From Acidimicrobiaceae bacterium (GTDB lineage Bacteria > Actinomycetota > Acidimicrobiia > Acidimicrobiales > Ilumatobacteraceae), in the NCBI GenBank assembly GCA_003455715.1, contig DMQJ01000437.1, positions 921-10,616 on the forward strand: a stretch of 9,696 bases of DNA, given 5' to 3'. This document shows positions 174 to 5,579 of the stretch, piece after piece (within the stretch, counting starts at the first letter, position 1; the number at the start of each line of letters is the position of its first letter). Position numbers and translations under genes: made by a program. The notes under the pieces were generated by a model that was given only the letters and a program-made list of their open reading frames with translations, was not told the DNA's origin and searched no databases.

Positions 174-557
174 ATGTCGGAGGAAATGGTCGACGTCGTG
201 CTGTCGCACGCAGGGCAGACGCGACGAGCGTTCATCGCCAAGTTGGTGCTCGGTTCGGCTGCGTTTGCAGCGCCCGTCGTCGCCTCCTTCACCATCGGCG
301 GCAGCGCGGCCCCTCGCCGCTCCCCCATCCAGCCAGCCGACCAGGAGCCGATCCTGATCGATTGCGGCCCCAACTCCACCGATGAGGCGTGCAACACCAT
401 CGACGAGGGTCCCAACACGGTCGACGAGGGCCCCAACACAGTCGACGAGGGCCCGAACACAGTCGATGACGGTTGCAACACCACTGAGGGAGAGCCCTGC
501 GACGACGACTCCGGCTCGGGCGTTCCCGGCGGTGGCGGCATTCCCGCCACCGAGTGA
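174..557 (+). CDS. Tat-signal exported protein with six acidic heptad repeats (candidate modified substrate)
   Basis: This is a 127-aa protein. I chose the ATG at 174 because GGGAGG at 164-169 sits 4 nt before it and because the Tat-like motif T16-R-R-A-F-I then falls near the N-terminus. A hydrophobic segment follows (about 24-41), with a possible signal peptidase site near A45-A46. From P66 to E107 the protein is six consecutive heptads (PNSTDEA, CNTIDEG, PNTVDEG twice, PNTVDDG, CNTTEGE), then a Gly-rich tail. The four cysteines C64, C73, C101 and C109 flank the repeats. There is no Lys or Arg after R49, and about 19 residues from 50 onward are acidic. I recognise no family. The layout suggests a precursor or surface protein: signal or leader followed by a repetitive modifiable core. 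The next gene, a SunS-like glycosyltransferase, overlaps its stop by GTGA, so the two are probably co-translated. A metal-binding acidic repeat is an alternative role. Confidence 0.8.
   Translation: MSEEMVDVVLSHAGQTRRAFIAKLVLGSAAFAAPVVASFTIGGSAAPRRSPIQPADQEPILIDCGPNSTDEACNTIDEGPNTVDEGPNTVDEGPNTVDDGCNTTEGEPCDDDSGSGVPGGGGIPATE
369..494 (+). repeat. Six tandem 21-bp units encoding (P/C)NTxDEG heptads
   Basis: Six in-frame 21-nt units encode residues 66-107 of the exported protein. The units at 411-431 and 432-452 differ at one base (ACG versus ACA, both Thr). The unit at 453-473 is more diverged, and the outer units (369-410 and 474-494) keep mainly the N-S/T core and acidic residues. The near-identical central units point to recent duplication, so copy number may vary between strains. 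Confidence 0.9.
530..552 (+). promoter_or_regulatory. Hairpin directly before the SunS-like GT start codon
   Basis: CGGTGGCGG at 530-538 and CCGCCACCG at 544-552 form a perfect 9-bp stem with 8 G-C pairs and a CATTC loop, ending one base before the GTG at 554. The stem would take up the sequence where the downstream gene's ribosome binding site should be, and no free Shine-Dalgarno is visible. Because it lies inside the last codons of the heptad-repeat gene, ribosomes finishing that gene would melt it. That would tie glycosyltransferase synthesis to substrate synthesis. It could instead act as an attenuator, or be a by-product of the Gly-rich tail codons. Confidence 0.45.
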
Positions 558-1699
558 ACCGCCGCGACGTCGTGTCGCCCCCGCTGCTCGGCGCGGCCAT
601 CATCGTCAAGAACGAAGCCGACCATCTTGAGCGGTGCCTCACGTCGCTGCGCGGCGTGTGCGACCAAGTCGTCGTTGTCGACACCGGCAGCGCTGACCGC
701 TCGGTGCAGGTAGCCGAACGCCACGGAGCCGTCGTGGGCCACTACCCCTGGGACGGCAACTTCTCGGCAGCTCGTAACACCGCGCTCGACCTGCTCACCG
801 CCGAATGGGTGCTGTACATCGATGCCGACGAGGAGGTGCAACCCGGCGACATCGCAGCGTTCCATCACCAGCTCCGCCATGCCGACGGCATCATCACGTT
901 CACGGTGCGCTTCGCAGCCCGCGTGGGCTGGACGCCCTACTGGGAGTACCGGTTGTGGCGGCACCGGCCCGACATTCGCTTCCGCAATCGCATCCACGAG
1001 ACGCATGTGCCCGATCTACGCCGCATCATGCGCACCGAGCATCTGCGCGAAGCACGCAGCCTGCTGTCGATCCAGCACTACGGCTACGAGGGCGACCAGA
1101 CCCACAAACACCACCGCAACCGGCCCCTGCTCGAACAGCAGGTGATCGACAGTCCCCGACGGGTGTATCTGTGGAACCACCTCGGGCAGGTGTACGACGG
1201 GCTGGGGATGCAGGCCGAGGCCGAGGCCGCGTGGAGGCACGGTGTGGAGATCGTGCGTGTCGACGGGCTGAAGGAGACCGTCGACATCCTCGTCTACGGC
1301 TCGCTCGCCCTGCACCTGTTGCGCAACCGACGCAGCGCACGAGCGGTCATCGACGAAGGACTGGCGCTCGACGACGACCACTACACCCTCATCCTCGCCG
1401 ACGCTCGTCAACGGGCGCTCGACGGCGACTTCGAGGCAGCCGTGACGTCGATCGACCGCCTCATCAGCGCAGGCACGTCGCTCGACCATCAGTCGCTCGC
1501 GTACAACGCAGCCATCTTCGGCCCCTGGGCGTGGCAGTTGCTCGGCGAGAGCCTGTTCGAACTCGGCAGATATCAGCAGGCGGCAGAGGCGTTCACCGAA
1601 GCCGTCCACCACGGGGCGCCCGAAGTGGAGATGCGCACCAAGGCAACGCTGTGCCGATCGCTGGCGGGTTCAGGCGATGAGTTGCTCGGCGCGCAGTGA
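554..1699 (+). CDS. SunS-like GT2 glycosyltransferase with C-terminal TPRs
   Basis: This is a 381-aa cytoplasmic glycosyltransferase. The start is GTG, overlapping the previous stop as GTGA. The N-terminal GT-A domain has IIVKNEADHLERCL (16-29), VVDTGSADRS (41-50) and the metal/nucleotide-sugar motif YIDADEEV with D90-A-D92. The R-I-H-E signature at 146-149 is typical of the GT2 group containing SunS, the sublancin S-glycosyltransferase. TPR-like helices follow at about 203-236 and 326-354, and could bind a peptide substrate. Family knowledge: SunS-type enzymes transfer a hexose from UDP-sugar to Cys or Ser of a peptide, but many relatives act on other acceptors. The adjoining Cys/Thr-rich repeat protein is the obvious candidate acceptor, by inference. 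The last 30 bp overlap the 3' end of the convergent PqqD-like gene. Confidence 0.88.
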   Translation: MNRRDVVSPPLLGAAIIVKNEADHLERCLTSLRGVCDQVVVVDTGSADRSVQVAERHGAVVGHYPWDGNFSAARNTALDLLTAEWVLYIDADEEVQPGDIAAFHHQLRHADGIITFTVRFAARVGWTPYWEYRLWRHRPDIRFRNRIHETHVPDLRRIMRTEHLREARSLLSIQHYGYEGDQTHKHHRNRPLLEQQVIDSPRRVYLWNHLGQVYDGLGMQAEAEAAWRHGVEIVRVDGLKETVDILVYGSLALHLLRNRRSARAVIDEGLALDDDHYTLILADARQRALDGDFEAAVTSIDRLISAGTSLDHQSLAYNAAIFGPWAWQLLGESLFELGRYQQAAEAFTEAVHHGAPEVEMRTKATLCRSLAGSGDELLGAQ

Positions 1700-1927
1700 C
1701 GCCATCACCGTGGCCACCTCTGCCGTCGGCGCCTCGTCGAGCCCGAATGCCTGCTGTACCAGCGCGACGATCTGCTCGTCGCTGTTTGCTCCGGTGCACA
1801 GCTCGAAGATGAGCGCAGCGGTGACGTTGAGGTGGTGCACACGGCGGGTCTCGGGCTGGAACACCACCAGGCCGTCGTCGGTCTCGGTGATGTCGAGTCG
1901 CGGAACCTGGGCAGGGTGTGCAGCCAT
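1670..1927 (-). CDS. Standalone PqqD-like peptide-recognition protein (RRE fold)
   Basis: This 85-aa protein matches the PqqD family. It has an N-terminal strand pair (about V8-R29), the segment HHLNVTAALIFELCTG (31-46), an acidic linker and a C-terminal helix AEVATVMASL (69-78). Family knowledge: PqqD and its relatives are RiPP recognition elements that bind a precursor's leader peptide and hand it to a modifying enzyme. The ATG at 1927 is preferred because TACACT sits 7 nt upstream on this strand, as expected for a leaderless transcript. An ATG at 1954 is possible, but its GGAGG is 16 nt away. The gene runs antisense between two forward-strand glycosyltransferase genes. It overlaps the first by 30 bp and diverges from the second by 30 bp. 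No radical SAM partner is visible in the window. Confidence 0.78.
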   Translation of the reverse strand: MAAHPAQVPRLDITETDDGLVVFQPETRRVHHLNVTAALIFELCTGANSDEQIVALVQQAFGLDEAPTAEVATVMASLRAEQLIA

Positions 1928-1934
1928 TGCCGCG

Positions 1935-1940
1935 AGTGTA
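1935..1940 (-). promoter_or_regulatory. -10 box of a leaderless promoter for the PqqD-like gene
   Basis: Read on the minus strand, TACACT (TANNNT) is 7 nt upstream of the ATG at 1927, which would make the start codon the first transcribed base. It lies in the 30-bp gap to the divergent glycosyltransferase gene. The expected -35 region falls inside that gene's first codons and shows no good match. Confidence 0.4.
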
Positions 1941-1957
1941 GGCAGGCCCTGCATCCA

Positions 1958-3076
1958 ATGATTCGCTACGCCTCCGAGTTCGACCACAGCGGCTACGCCG
2001 TCGCTGCCCGTCGTTACGTGCGCGCGCTCATCGCCGCCGGGGTGTCGCTGCACTGGGACCCGCTCGTCAACACGCACGACGGGCGCGTCCTCACCGACCG
2101 ATCGGCGGCTGCCTCGTCGGCGTTGCGCGATCTCGCCGCCCAACCTCGCCTGCCACCGGGCTTCGAGGCCGAGGCAACGATTGCCCACTGCATGCCCATG
2201 TCGTGGCGCCGCCTCTTCGACGAACTCCCCTCACGCCGCCGCATCGGGCAAACGGTGTGGGAAACCGAGACCGTTCCGACGCGGTGGCATCGGGAACTCG
2301 ACCCAGCCGACGAGCTCTGGGTGCCCACACGATGGAACGCCGACACGCTCCGACGCGGCGGCTGGACCAAGCCGTTGCATGTGGTGCCGCACATCGTCGA
2401 CCTGGCGCCAACCGCTCCCCCGCCGCTCGATCTGCCCGACGACGTCACCGTGTTCGTCACCATCGCGGCGTGGGAGCAACGCAAACGACCCGACCTCACC
2501 GTCGAGGCATTCCTGCGTGCGTTCACGACCGACGACCCTGTGGTACTCGTCGTGAAGACCGGACCACGCGTGCAGTCGTGGTTCACCGCCTCGGCCGCCG
2601 AGCGAGCCACGTGGTGGCAGGTGATGCAGCTCGTCAAGCAGCACAGCAGGCCGGCAGGGGTGCACCTGGTGACCGAGGTGTGGACCGACGAGCACATGGC
2701 CGGCCTCGTCGATCGGGCAGACGCCTACATCACCCTCACCGCCACGGAGGGATGGGGGCTTGGCGCCTTCGACGCCGCGACCCGCGGCGTTCCGGTCGTG
2801 ATCACCGGCTGGGGTGGCCAGCGCGAATGGCTCGCCGACGATGCCCCGTTCGTGGTGCCGTACCAGTTGGTGCCTGCCGACCACCCTGACCGCAGCATGT
2901 TCGAACCGGGGATGACCTGGGCTGCGGCCGACGTGGACGCAGCGGCCGCCATGCTGCGAGCAATCCACCTCGATCGTGGAGCGGCCCGCCGGGCGTCGGC
3001 GCCGATGGCCACCCGGTTGCAGCGCCAATACAGCCCCGAGGCCGTGGGATCGCTGATGAGGGAGGTGCTCGGTTGA
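1958..3076 (+). CDS. GT4-like (GT-B fold) glycosyltransferase
   Basis: This 372-aa protein starts at the ATG at 1958, because recognisable GT sequence begins at once (YASEFDHSGYAVAARRYVRAL, from residue 4). The N-terminal Rossmann domain ends near 160. The C-terminal nucleotide-sugar domain starts with VTVFVTIAAWEQRKRPDL (163-180), followed by VVLVVKTG (195-202) and the donor-site region TEGWGLGAFDAATRGVPV (263-280). In the usual E-x7-E pattern E264 is present, but the second Glu is D272. Retaining GT4 enzymes use this region to bind the donor sugar. Substrate and product cannot be told. The ribosome binding site is weak (AGGCAGG, 11 nt before ATG). Its stop overlaps the next gene's TTG, so the two are translationally coupled. 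It probably elongates a glycan started by the SunS-like enzyme, by context only. Confidence 0.83.
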   Translation: MIRYASEFDHSGYAVAARRYVRALIAAGVSLHWDPLVNTHDGRVLTDRSAAASSALRDLAAQPRLPPGFEAEATIAHCMPMSWRRLFDELPSRRRIGQTVWETETVPTRWHRELDPADELWVPTRWNADTLRRGGWTKPLHVVPHIVDLAPTAPPPLDLPDDVTVFVTIAAWEQRKRPDLTVEAFLRAFTTDDPVVLVVKTGPRVQSWFTASAAERATWWQVMQLVKQHSRPAGVHLVTEVWTDEHMAGLVDRADAYITLTATEGWGLGAFDAATRGVPVVITGWGGQREWLADDAPFVVPYQLVPADHPDRSMFEPGMTWAAADVDAAAAMLRAIHLDRGAARRASAPMATRLQRQYSPEAVGSLMREVLG

Positions 3077-3837
3077 GCAATGTGCTCGTGCTCACACCGG
3101 CGAAGAACGCCGCGCACGAGGCACCCGGCTTCGTCGACCGATTGCTGGCCCTCACCTACCCCCGCGAGCGGCTGTCGCTCGGCATGCTGGTGAGCGACAG
3201 CGACGACGGCACGGCCGACGCGTTCCGCCGTGAGACGCACCGCTTGGTCGACGGCGGCTGGCACGCGGTCGACATCTGGCAGCGCGACTTTGGCTATCGC
3301 ATTCCCGAGGGCCTGCCGCGCTGGGCGCCCGAGATCCAGCTGGAACGGCGGCGCATTCTGGCGCTCAGCCGCAACCACCTGTTGTTCAACGCCCTCACCC
3401 CCGCCATCGACTGGGTGCTCTGGGTCGATGTCGACGTGGTGGAGTATCAGCCCGACATCATCGAACTACTGCTCGCGCTCGGCCGCGACATTCTGCAACC
3501 GCACTGCGTCACCGAGTGGGGTGGCCCAACGTTCGACCTGAACGCGTGGCGCGACCACGGACGCCTCCACCTCGACGATCTGCGCGACGAAGGCTTCCTC
3601 GTGCCGCTCGACGCAGTGGGCGGAACCATGTTGCTCGTGCGCGCCGATTGCCACCGCGACGGTCTCATCTGGCCCGCGTTTCGTTACGGGCTGGCGAACC
3701 CACGGGTCCGCACCGATCCGGCGCAGATCGGGCGACCCGAGCTGGGTGAGATCGAGACAGAGGGGTTGGGTGTGATGGCCCACGACATGGGCATCACGCC
3801 CTGGGGCCTTCCCCACGTGGAGATTCGCCACCGCTGA
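3073..3837 (+). CDS. Anp1/Mnn9-like glycosyltransferase (GT62-type)
   Basis: This is a 254-aa protein starting at TTG 3073. The start is backed by AGGGAGG at 3059-3065 with a 7-nt spacer and by a TTGA overlap with the preceding stop. The pattern matches the yeast Anp1/Mnn9/Van1 family: LTPAKNAA (7-14), LGMLVSDSDDGTAD (36-49), LSRNHLLFNAL (98-108), WVLWVDVDVVEY with the metal-binding D119-V-D121, DLNAW (155-159), DAVGGTMLLVRADCHRDG (180-197), and IETEGLGVMAHDMG (227-240). Yeast members are Golgi alpha-mannosyltransferases that extend N-glycans. Bacterial homologues are little characterised, so mannose as donor is a guess. Unlike the yeast proteins it has no N-terminal membrane anchor, so it should be cytoplasmic or peripheral. 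It is the last gene of the forward-strand run. Confidence 0.82.
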   Translation: MSNVLVLTPAKNAAHEAPGFVDRLLALTYPRERLSLGMLVSDSDDGTADAFRRETHRLVDGGWHAVDIWQRDFGYRIPEGLPRWAPEIQLERRRILALSRNHLLFNALTPAIDWVLWVDVDVVEYQPDIIELLLALGRDILQPHCVTEWGGPTFDLNAWRDHGRLHLDDLRDEGFLVPLDAVGGTMLLVRADCHRDGLIWPAFRYGLANPRVRTDPAQIGRPELGEIETEGLGVMAHDMGITPWGLPHVEIRHR

Positions 3838-3871
3838 GCCGACACGCAGCCCGGCGCGTCAGCCGTTGGCG
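3826..3871. terminator. Imperfect palindrome across convergent stops, possible bidirectional terminator
   Basis: CGCCA-CC-GCTGA (3826-3837) can pair with TCAGC-CGT-TGGCG (3859-3871), and an inner GCCG/CGGC (3838-3841 with 3852-3855) extends the structure. Both genes end in GC-TGA inside the arms, so part of the symmetry is coding coincidence. There is no T-tract on either strand. It is the only candidate terminator in the 21-bp gap between two converging glycosyltransferase genes. Confidence 0.35.
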
Positions 3872-5010
3872 ACCAGCCCCGCCACGAGGCTGTCGAACAC
3901 CGTTGCCGCATAGCGCTGCTCGACGAGCGCCCGGCCAGCAGCGCCGACGGCGGCAGCCATCGATGGGTCGCACAGCACGGCATTGACCGCTTCCGCAAAG
4001 GCGGTCGGCGAGTCGGCCACCAATGCGTGCAGGCCGGGTTGGAACGTGAGCCCCTCCAGTGCTGCCGACGTGGCCACCACCGGACGGCCGTGTGCCCACG
4101 CCTCCAGCACCTTGATGCGGGTGCCGCTGCCCACGCGAATCGGGGCGATCGCCACCGTCGATGCGGCGTACTCCGGACCGAGATCGGCCACCAACCCGGC
4201 AACATCGACACCGGCGGTGTCGCCAAAACGCTCGCCACCTCGCCCGACGATGCGCACCATCGGGTGGCGTCCGCTGGCGAGCAGCAGCGGGTGTGCGGAA
4301 CGGAGATACCACTCAAGCCCATCCACGTTCGGGCCGTACGTGAGGTTGCCGACGAACAAGATCGGCCCGCTCGCGGGCGGCGGCGACACATCAGCAGGCA
4401 GATCGACGCAGTTGGGCAGCACGACCACGCCGGGCAGCGCGTGCACGCCAGCGGCAACAAAGCGCGTCTCGGCATGCATGCGCAGTCGGCCGTACAACCG
4501 CTCGTACGCAGCGGCCAGCGCAGCGTTACCGCTGGCGTGGTGAAACGCGGCGTCGTCGTCGTCGAGGTCGACCACGAGCCGGGCCGCGGCGACTGCGGGC
4601 GAACTCGCTCGCAGCCCCACGACGAATGGCGCCAGGTACGCACGAAAGCACACGACGACGTCGAACGGAGGAGCCTGAGCGAAGTGACGAGCAGCTTCTG
4701 CACCCAACCACGGCGGGGCGGCCGCGGCCAACGGAACCCCACCGGACCCACTGTCGAAGGTTGCCATCGCAGTGCGCACCGCCGGCACTGCCATGCCCCG
4801 GATGGCGCCGGCGCGCACCTCATCGCCACTGGGCAGAGCCACCACGTGCGCATCCGCGGCCCCCACGCGTGCTCCCGGGTCGACCACCGGCACCACCAGC
4901 GTGCTCACGTCGCCAACCGCCGACAGCGCCCGCACCCATGCGGCGGAGCGATGGGCGAGGCCGCTGCCCACCAGACCTGGACGGATCGGGGTGACGAACA
5001 GCGCCCTCAG
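3859..5010 (-). CDS. GT4-like glycosyltransferase with an unusual start
   Basis: This protein is about 383 aa. Recognisable sequence begins at ALFVTPIRPGLVGSG, but there is no ATG, GTG or TTG in frame just before it. Upstream codons in this frame are Arg-rich antisense-type noise overlapping the lipoprotein gene. The nearest option is CTG at 5010, 14 nt after the lipoprotein stop. A GTG at 4971 would remove the first beta strand. The rest is normal for GT-B sugar transferases: RLVVDLDDDD (144-153), ILFVGNLTYGPNVDGLEWYL (217-236), VRIVGRGG (252-259), and the donor site IRVGSGTRIKVLEAWAHGRP (291-310) with E303. The pattern resembles the sugar transferases of exopolysaccharide loci. It sits last in the dapA-rnj unit and has no clear ribosome binding site, so it probably relies on ribosomes arriving from the lipoprotein gene. 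Function is certain only at family level; the 5' end is uncertain. Confidence 0.75.
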   Translation of the reverse strand: MRALFVTPIRPGLVGSGLAHRSAAWVRALSAVGDVSTLVVPVVDPGARVGAADAHVVALPSGDEVRAGAIRGMAVPAVRTAMATFDSGSGGVPLAAAAPPWLGAEAARHFAQAPPFDVVVCFRAYLAPFVVGLRASSPAVAAARLVVDLDDDDAAFHHASGNAALAAAYERLYGRLRMHAETRFVAAGVHALPGVVVLPNCVDLPADVSPPPASGPILFVGNLTYGPNVDGLEWYLRSAHPLLLASGRHPMVRIVGRGGERFGDTAGVDVAGLVADLGPEYAASTVAIAPIRVGSGTRIKVLEAWAHGRPVVATSAALEGLTFQPGLHALVADSPTAFAEAVNAVLCDPSMAAAVGAAGRALVEQRYAATVFDSLVAGLVANG

Positions 5011-5024
5011 GTGACGACCACTTG

Positions 5025-5579
5025 CTACAGGGGGTCGACCGAGACGATGCCGCCATCGCCGTCGACCACGATGTCGAGCCCGCCGCCGCATTGGGCGACG
5101 CCGAGAACGGCGTACCGCACTGATCCTTGGCCGTCGCCGTTGACGTAGAACGTCTGCAGCACCAAGTCGGGCACCTCGTCCCGAACCGTGGCGAGCACGG
5201 TGGTCGGATCGAACGCCAACTGGTCGGCCGTGAAGGTGCCCCCCTGTGCAGCCTGACCCTCGGTGGAGGTGAGCCCACCATCGACGTAGATCCACTGTTG
5301 AGCGATGGTGCCGCCGCTGAGTGCGACGAACAGGTTCACCGCACGCGCCGTGGCGTTGACTTCGAAGAACTCTGGCGGCGCACCAAGTGCTCCTTCGAGC
5401 GCGTCGACTGCCTCGGCGATGCGACCCACCTGCGGCAGGTCGGTGTCGGGTTGGGCGGTGCCCGAGGGGGTGCAAATGGTGACGTCGGGCTGCTCGGTGG
5501 TGGCGCTCGATCCGTCATCGCTACACGCCCCCAGCACGACCACGCTGAAGGCTGCGAGCAGCGCCAGTCGGCGCCTCAT
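5025..5579 (-). CDS. Small secreted lipoprotein, function unknown
   Basis: This 184-aa protein has a short lipoprotein signal: basic MRRR, a hydrophobic stretch 5-18, and the lipobox V-L-G-A-C19, followed by an acidic/Ser-Thr linker. The lipidated Cys would tether it to the outer face of the membrane. The mature part (about 50-184) is one small domain with alternating strands and helices, two further cysteines (C36, C164, possibly a disulfide) and an ending DIVVDGDGGIVSVDP vaguely like PepSY-type repeats. I do not recognise a family. Its ATG overlaps the RNase J stop as ATGA, and the GGAGG next to it is too close to act normally, so it is probably made by translational coupling. Confidence 0.82.
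   Translation of the reverse strand: MRRRLALLAAFSVVVLGACSDDGSSATTEQPDVTICTPSGTAQPDTDLPQVGRIAEAVDALEGALGAPPEFFEVNATARAVNLFVALSGGTIAQQWIYVDGGLTSTEGQAAQGGTFTADQLAFDPTTVLATVRDEVPDLVLQTFYVNGDGQGSVRYAVLGVAQCGGGLDIVVDGDGGIVSVDPL

Follow-up and report, generated by a model that had tools for sequence, protein, structure and literature searches.

Why should the gene of a small protein with a twin-arginine signal overlap the gene of a SunS-like glycosyltransferase, with a PqqD-family gene close by? The question is raised by a 9,696-nucleotide stretch of DNA (hereafter the window; positions 921 to 10,616 of contig DMQJ01000437.1, assembly GCA_003455715.1) from an Acidimicrobiaceae bacterium, for which a first-pass annotation made from the letters alone had proposed an undescribed peptide-glycosylation system. 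We put at about 60% the probability that the locus encodes PqqD-guided glycosylation, in the cytoplasm, of swappable protein tails carried behind a leader of the Tat (twin-arginine translocation) type, with export to follow. An undescribed system is likely because a dozen related loci show the same gene set with a different tail.

A conserved leader, exchanged tails and a linked glycosyltransferase

The predicted substrate is a leader-tail protein of 127 residues encoded at 174-557 (plus strand). Its leader (residues 1-44, positions 174-305) carries the twin-arginine motif TRRAF, a hydrophobic stretch and a PVVASF motif, and is followed by a repeat tail. The product reads MSEEMVDVVLSHAGQTRRAFIAKLVLGSAAFAAPVVASFTIGG... 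and then runs through the heptads NSTDEAC, NTIDEGP, NTVDEGP, NTVDEGP, NTVDDGC and NTTEGEP (372-497), each counted from its Asn and together detected in the DNA as a 21-nt tandem repeat of 5.5 copies with 77% matches. The six (P/C)NTxDEG heptads originally described are thus present, the first and last fitting the pattern loosely. The GTG start codon (554) of the SunS-like glycosyltransferase gene overlaps the TGA of the leader-tail gene by 4 nt, as had been noted.

The leader-tail gene is a real, conserved gene with 11 relatives besides itself (E<=0.01), the nearest named one coming from an Ilumatobacteraceae metagenome-assembled genome (MAG). Across these 11 relatives the leader is the best-conserved part and almost unchanged, whereas the tail differs in length and sequence (alignment A1); the leader is conserved and tails are exchanged between loci. 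Residues R17, R18, F20 and P34 are invariant in 20 aligned leaders hand-picked among the hits for diversity. A strict regular expression for the leader picked up 11 of 16 leader loci; with no match in 206 kb of other DNA it is specific, though it misses members. An AlphaFold2 model of the protein (predicted local distance difference test, pLDDT, 52) gave no fold for the tail.

Linkage to the glycosyltransferase was examined from both sides. A search of 390 genomes of the class with the SunS-like enzyme gave 11 matches at E<=2e-50, in 10 genomes, separated by a gap from the next match at E 6.9e-29. The coupling test took in 30 loci, 11 strong and 19 weak; for one additional weak match there was no locus. 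Of the 11 strong loci, 10 matched the leader profile, the eleventh being a second glycosyltransferase copy in the same G038 cluster. Hence a leader lies beside the enzyme in 10/10 genomes having a close relative and in 0/19 of the weaker relatives, which bears out the proposed coupling; these genome counts are lower bounds, as at most five glycosyltransferase and 18 leader candidates were scored per genome. In the reverse direction, a profile of diverse leaders picked out 11 of 375 genomes: the 10 from the glycosyltransferase search and G443, where a leader and PqqD are present and no SunS-like glycosyltransferase was found. As the reverse-search profile itself contained some of these leaders, the glycosyltransferase search is the independent arm. 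The first-pass annotation had named conservation of the glycosyltransferases together without the repeat protein as the pattern that would speak against it; we looked for this pattern and did not find it.

Thirteen distinct SunS-like loci were then compared: G000, G003, G025, G038, G120, G122, G295, G359, G416, G420 and G890 plus L008 and L009, two named Actinomycetes MAG contigs (L010 scores the same as L009 and was left out). A leader protein stands beside the glycosyltransferase in all 13, with its gene directly upstream and co-directional in 12, and a PqqD gene lies within 4 kb of the glycosyltransferase in 12, in keeping with the partnership first proposed. An ordinary surface-polysaccharide locus, whose glycosyltransferases build a polysaccharide and only happen to adjoin the gene of an unrelated secreted leader protein that is not their substrate, would account for the several GT4 and GT2 genes and for the FkbM and Gly_transf_sug genes of related loci, but is improbable given the 10/10 versus 0/19 coupling and the recurrence of PqqD. 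Moreover, the nearest solved relatives of the glycosyltransferase act on polypeptides, and none of the 12 window proteins scanned matched a flippase or polymerase.

Other profile matches were set aside. The whole-length profile A1 matched 6 of 221 genomes of the taxonomic family, of which G000 and G003 are members; G171, G008, G002 and G034 were dropped as weak, and their loci (L021-L024) contain no match to any window protein. At E<=1e-3 the leader profile A2 matched 20/395 and 6/396 genomes. Nine A2 matches at E 6.9e-5 or weaker (L063-L067 and L069-L072) were not counted as members; tblastn found no SunS-like match in these nine loci, and no PqqD except a weak match in L065 (E 2e-5).

Two loci show further arrangements of leader genes. 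In G122 (L062 8196-9921) two tandem leader proteins with SGN repeats precede one SunS-like glycosyltransferase. In G003 two contigs end within the repeats of the leader gene and cut it (L017 5739-5915; L018 3-236); such repeat-bearing genes may interrupt assemblies and so may be counted too low.

The glycosyltransferase and its candidate acceptor residue

The SunS-like gene (554-1699, plus strand) encodes a GT-A (GT2) glycosyltransferase, with a Glycos_transf_2 match of 67.2 bits, joined to tetratricopeptide repeats (TPR). Its best NCBIfam match is SunS at 52.3 bits, far below the 350-bit equivalog cut-off. The AlphaFold2 model (pLDDT 95.2) consists of a GT-A domain plus helical repeats, and SunS and ThuS were its best matches by both Foldseek and VIA-align, so the enzyme is predicted to have the SunS/ThuS fold. 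By sequence the best PDB match is GmaR (77.4 bits). GmaR was not among the best 50 rows of either structure search; the entry may postdate the structure library, and we conclude nothing from this. A DAD motif is invariant in 56 aligned glycosyltransferase sequences, and in the tree the leader-linked enzymes fall on one side of a branch.

Which residue would such an enzyme modify? The first-pass annotation had named the heptad Thr, Ser or Cys. Tails beside the SunS-like enzyme carry GPNTVDE, GGGGNT, NGS, SGN or PNQY repeats. The G359 tail, as cut for comparison, contains ten Asn but lacks Ser, Thr and Cys altogether, and its glycosyltransferase matches at E 4.8e-69; three DEGPNVI heptads of protein P0012 likewise lack all three residues. 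Because the G359 tail has none of them, Thr/Ser/Cys is rejected as the general acceptor. Invariant columns of alignment A1 include five of the six heptad Asn positions as well as Asp and Gly positions, but no heptad Thr position. The Asn share is 2.4-18.2% in 14 glycosyltransferase-linked tails versus 1.5-2.3% in three leader proteins without the enzyme, and 1.9% in ten other window proteins. As Asn occurs in every tail examined, it is a more likely acceptor than the heptad Thr/Ser/Cys; it is a lead only, since few proteins were compared, the low-end gap is narrow and the loci are related. In the G359 tail Tyr or Gln are alternatives.

A wider profile, which includes some tail columns, gave 411 proteins at E<=1e-3 among 7997 candidates scored, with genomic context seen for a minority of them. 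The best 120 of the 411 have the leader RRxF..AFxxPVVxSF, followed in most cases by a short tail in which Thr, Ser, Gly and Pro abound. Among the matches listed, tail Asn is present in 113/113 proteins of <150 residues. In 109 different tails PN[QTS] occurs 89 times (14.5 in shuffled tails) and N-x-T 129 times (82.8), with N-x-S rarer than chance (34 observed, 46.6 shuffled).

The same system could instead be O- or S-linked, the enzyme modifying Ser/Thr of the tail (poly-Thr, GSN, NTT) or Cys, as SunS and ThuS do, with Asn merely a turn-forming or recognition residue. PDB titles call SunS and ThuS S-glycosyltransferases, the relevant text of PMC12457901 has glycocins glycosylated on Ser, Thr or Cys, and Thr makes up 25.7% of the short tails in the wider family. 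Against these points stand the G359 tail and the P0012 heptads, and also the separation of linked from unlinked tails by Asn, though this is 14 tails against three with a narrow gap. We regard O- or S-linkage as a tentative option.

A glycocin-like secreted bacteriocin, the tail being a glycosylated antimicrobial peptide, would fit the SunS fold and the tails of 20-78 residues found in several loci. Three glycosyltransferase-linked tails exceed 200 residues, the G359 tail has no Cys, the tails are of low complexity and the leader is of Tat type, all of which make this reading very unlikely. A C39 peptidase or ABC transporter match was also absent among the 12 window proteins scanned, on a contig of 10,616 bases with any farther genes beyond view.

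Tails of the family often end in [IL]P motifs (GIPATE, LPSTE, DIPK; window 540-557). Such a motif lies within the last six residues of 37 of the 109 tails (2.5 in shuffles), an excess to which shared ancestry contributes. This C-terminal motif might be a processing or recognition signal.

PqqD, accessory enzymes and the proposed route

The PqqD-family protein (1670-1927, minus strand), whose gene overlaps the SunS-like gene tail to tail, is a predicted recognition element for ribosomally synthesized and post-translationally modified peptides (RiPP recognition element, RRE). It scores 41.9 bits for PF05402 (cut-off 23.4) and falls below the cut-off of TIGR03859, the PqqD of PQQ biosynthesis (32.7 versus 46 bits). 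In related loci PqqD is fused to other enzymes: above the 23.4-bit Pfam cut-off to a GT4 enzyme homologous to the second GT4 of the window (G025), an FkbM methyltransferase (G890) and a GT2/GT92-like enzyme (contig C518 of the window's own genome), and below it to FkbM in G025 (23.3 bits) and GT4 in G038 (19.3 bits). An apparent PqqD-leader fusion in L067 was not used, its PqqD part scoring 8.5 bits by profile with no Pfam match and its frame being cut by a contig end.

Three further glycosyltransferase genes adjoin. A GT4 gene (GT4a, 1958-3076, plus strand), predicted to act in glycan extension, has a homologue (E<=1e-8) in 9/13 loci, one being cut by the locus edge. The Anp1/GT62-like gene (3073-3837, plus strand) scores 149.9 bits for PF03452 (cut-off 28.8), and its product scores 70.6 bits with Mnn9 and 32.2 bits with procollagen galactosyltransferase 1. 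It occurs in 5/13 loci and in 4 of 61 genomes, its own included, and is therefore an optional part rather than the core component first proposed; GT4 genes are commoner. The second GT4 gene (GT4b, 3859-4995, minus strand; its frame stays open upstream of the given start) lies outside the interval originally annotated yet belongs to the recurring set, with homologues at E<=1e-8 in 10/13 loci. All the elements listed by the first-pass annotation are where it placed them. PqqD, GT4 and Anp1-like genes are also present in G006, where the contig begins inside the cluster. In G003 (L017 1369-3249) a weak sulfotransferase match (21.9 bits against a 27-bit cut-off) shares a frame with a GT4 of the cluster, and the glycan there might be sulfated.

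A lipoprotein-like open reading frame without a Pfam match (5025-5579, minus strand) adjoins the second GT4 gene. Downstream lie genes for RNase J, a dihydrodipicolinate-synthase-family protein and a sigma-70-family factor, which are not counted in the set. Scans of the window gave no match to Rfam and none to sigma-70 promoters, and terminator matches were near chance level.

The route we propose is as follows. PqqD would grip the leader and recruit the SunS-like enzyme, which would put the first sugar on the tail in the cytoplasm and might hold the substrate with its TPR part; the acceptor would more probably be Asn than heptad Thr/Ser/Cys. The GT4 enzymes, joined in some lineages by the Anp1-like enzyme, would lengthen the glycan. 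Tat would then export the finished protein and signal peptidase remove the leader, leaving the glycosylated tail outside the cell. Export by Tat is suggested by RRxF, invariant in the 20 aligned leaders and placed before the hydrophobic stretch; the genome has a TatC gene (PF00902, 227.3 bits).

Several observations weigh against this route. The branch that separates leader-linked from other glycosyltransferases has support 45/87, the split appearing in 50% of bootstrap trees, and L085, a 105-residue glycosyltransferase fragment without a leader, groups near the leader-linked enzymes. A leaderless close glycosyltransferase may have escaped the limited candidate scoring. G120 shows no PqqD before the contig end, and in G038 the leader gene is downstream of the glycosyltransferase. 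The L008 and L009 tails are non-repetitive with one Asn each (2.4%, versus 2.3% in L007). Among solved RREs the PqqD protein has a marginal match (TfuB1, E 0.039), and because GT4 genes are common their presence is weak evidence. Finally, leader and PqqD occur without the SunS-like enzyme in L055, L007 and C518, so the leader may serve other chemistry.

Two of these loci have decorating sets of their own. C518 (L031 3755-9753) is a second PqqD-leader locus in the same genome and has, in order, the GT2/GT92-PqqD fusion, a gene whose P-loop match stays under the cut-off and which we read as HprK-like, a leader protein with a PPPTT tail, and NTP_transf_5. L007 (9718-14102) comes from a MAG with the label Acidobacteria; its PqqD and leader genes are followed by genes for LicD, nucleotidyl/aminotransferase and methyltransferase. 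Gene order thus suggests a broader platform: PqqD and the leader stay the same from locus to locus, and it is the decorating enzyme that differs.

GT41 enzymes are bacterial cytoplasmic N-glycosyltransferases. A bolder version of the proposed route, which we hold as doubtful, is that a SunS-fold GT2 enzyme, guided by PqqD through the Tat signal as leader, N-glycosylates Asn of exchangeable low-complexity tails in the cytoplasm. This would be a second bacterial cytoplasmic route of Asn glycosylation beside GT41, within a PqqD and Tat-leader platform whose enzymes vary by locus (SunS-like, GT92-like, FkbM, LicD).

Relation to known systems

Each part is known already; we rate the assembly of the parts as new, and did not find the combination of Tat leader, PqqD and SunS-like glycosyltransferase described in open-licence papers. 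The glycocin systems (SunS/ThuS, for example sublancin) share the predicted enzyme fold, but here the enzyme falls far short of the SunS equivalog, the leader is of Tat type, PqqD and extra glycosyltransferases take part, the tails bear Asn and no C39 transporter is found among the window proteins. GmaR, the best PDB sequence match, is a cytoplasmic GT2 glycosyltransferase whose substrate is flagellin. FlmG combines TPR and glycosyltransferase parts and binds its substrate via the TPR part; its catalytic part is GT-B according to the text cited (PMC7591256), in contrast to GT-A here. The system here differs from GmaR and FlmG in its predicted substrate, a short protein with a Tat leader, and in the presence of PqqD.

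The likeness to RRE-guided RiPP pathways lies in the PF05402 domain. RRE-Finder recorded RRE-glycosyltransferase fusions outside known classes, and the passages cited mention neither a precursor family nor a Tat leader nor a SunS-like partner for them (PMC7470986, PMC12710340). In bufferins and oxazolins a signal peptide also replaces the RiPP leader, but there with a Sec signal, an MNIO enzyme and a Cys core rather than a Tat-type signal and glycosyltransferases. Mnn9/Anp1 (GT62) and procollagen galactosyltransferase 1 resemble the Anp1-like protein in sequence; the protein here is bacterial and an optional accessory.

If the proposed route is true, RRE-guided modification extends from small natural products to exported glycoproteins. 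The Tat signal would double as a recognition leader and, with tails swappable behind it, would constitute a leader-addressable protein-glycosylation system. It would also offer a possible explanation of, and candidate substrates for, the uncharacterised RRE-glycosyltransferase fusions, and the use of Asn by a SunS-fold enzyme would become a directly testable question.
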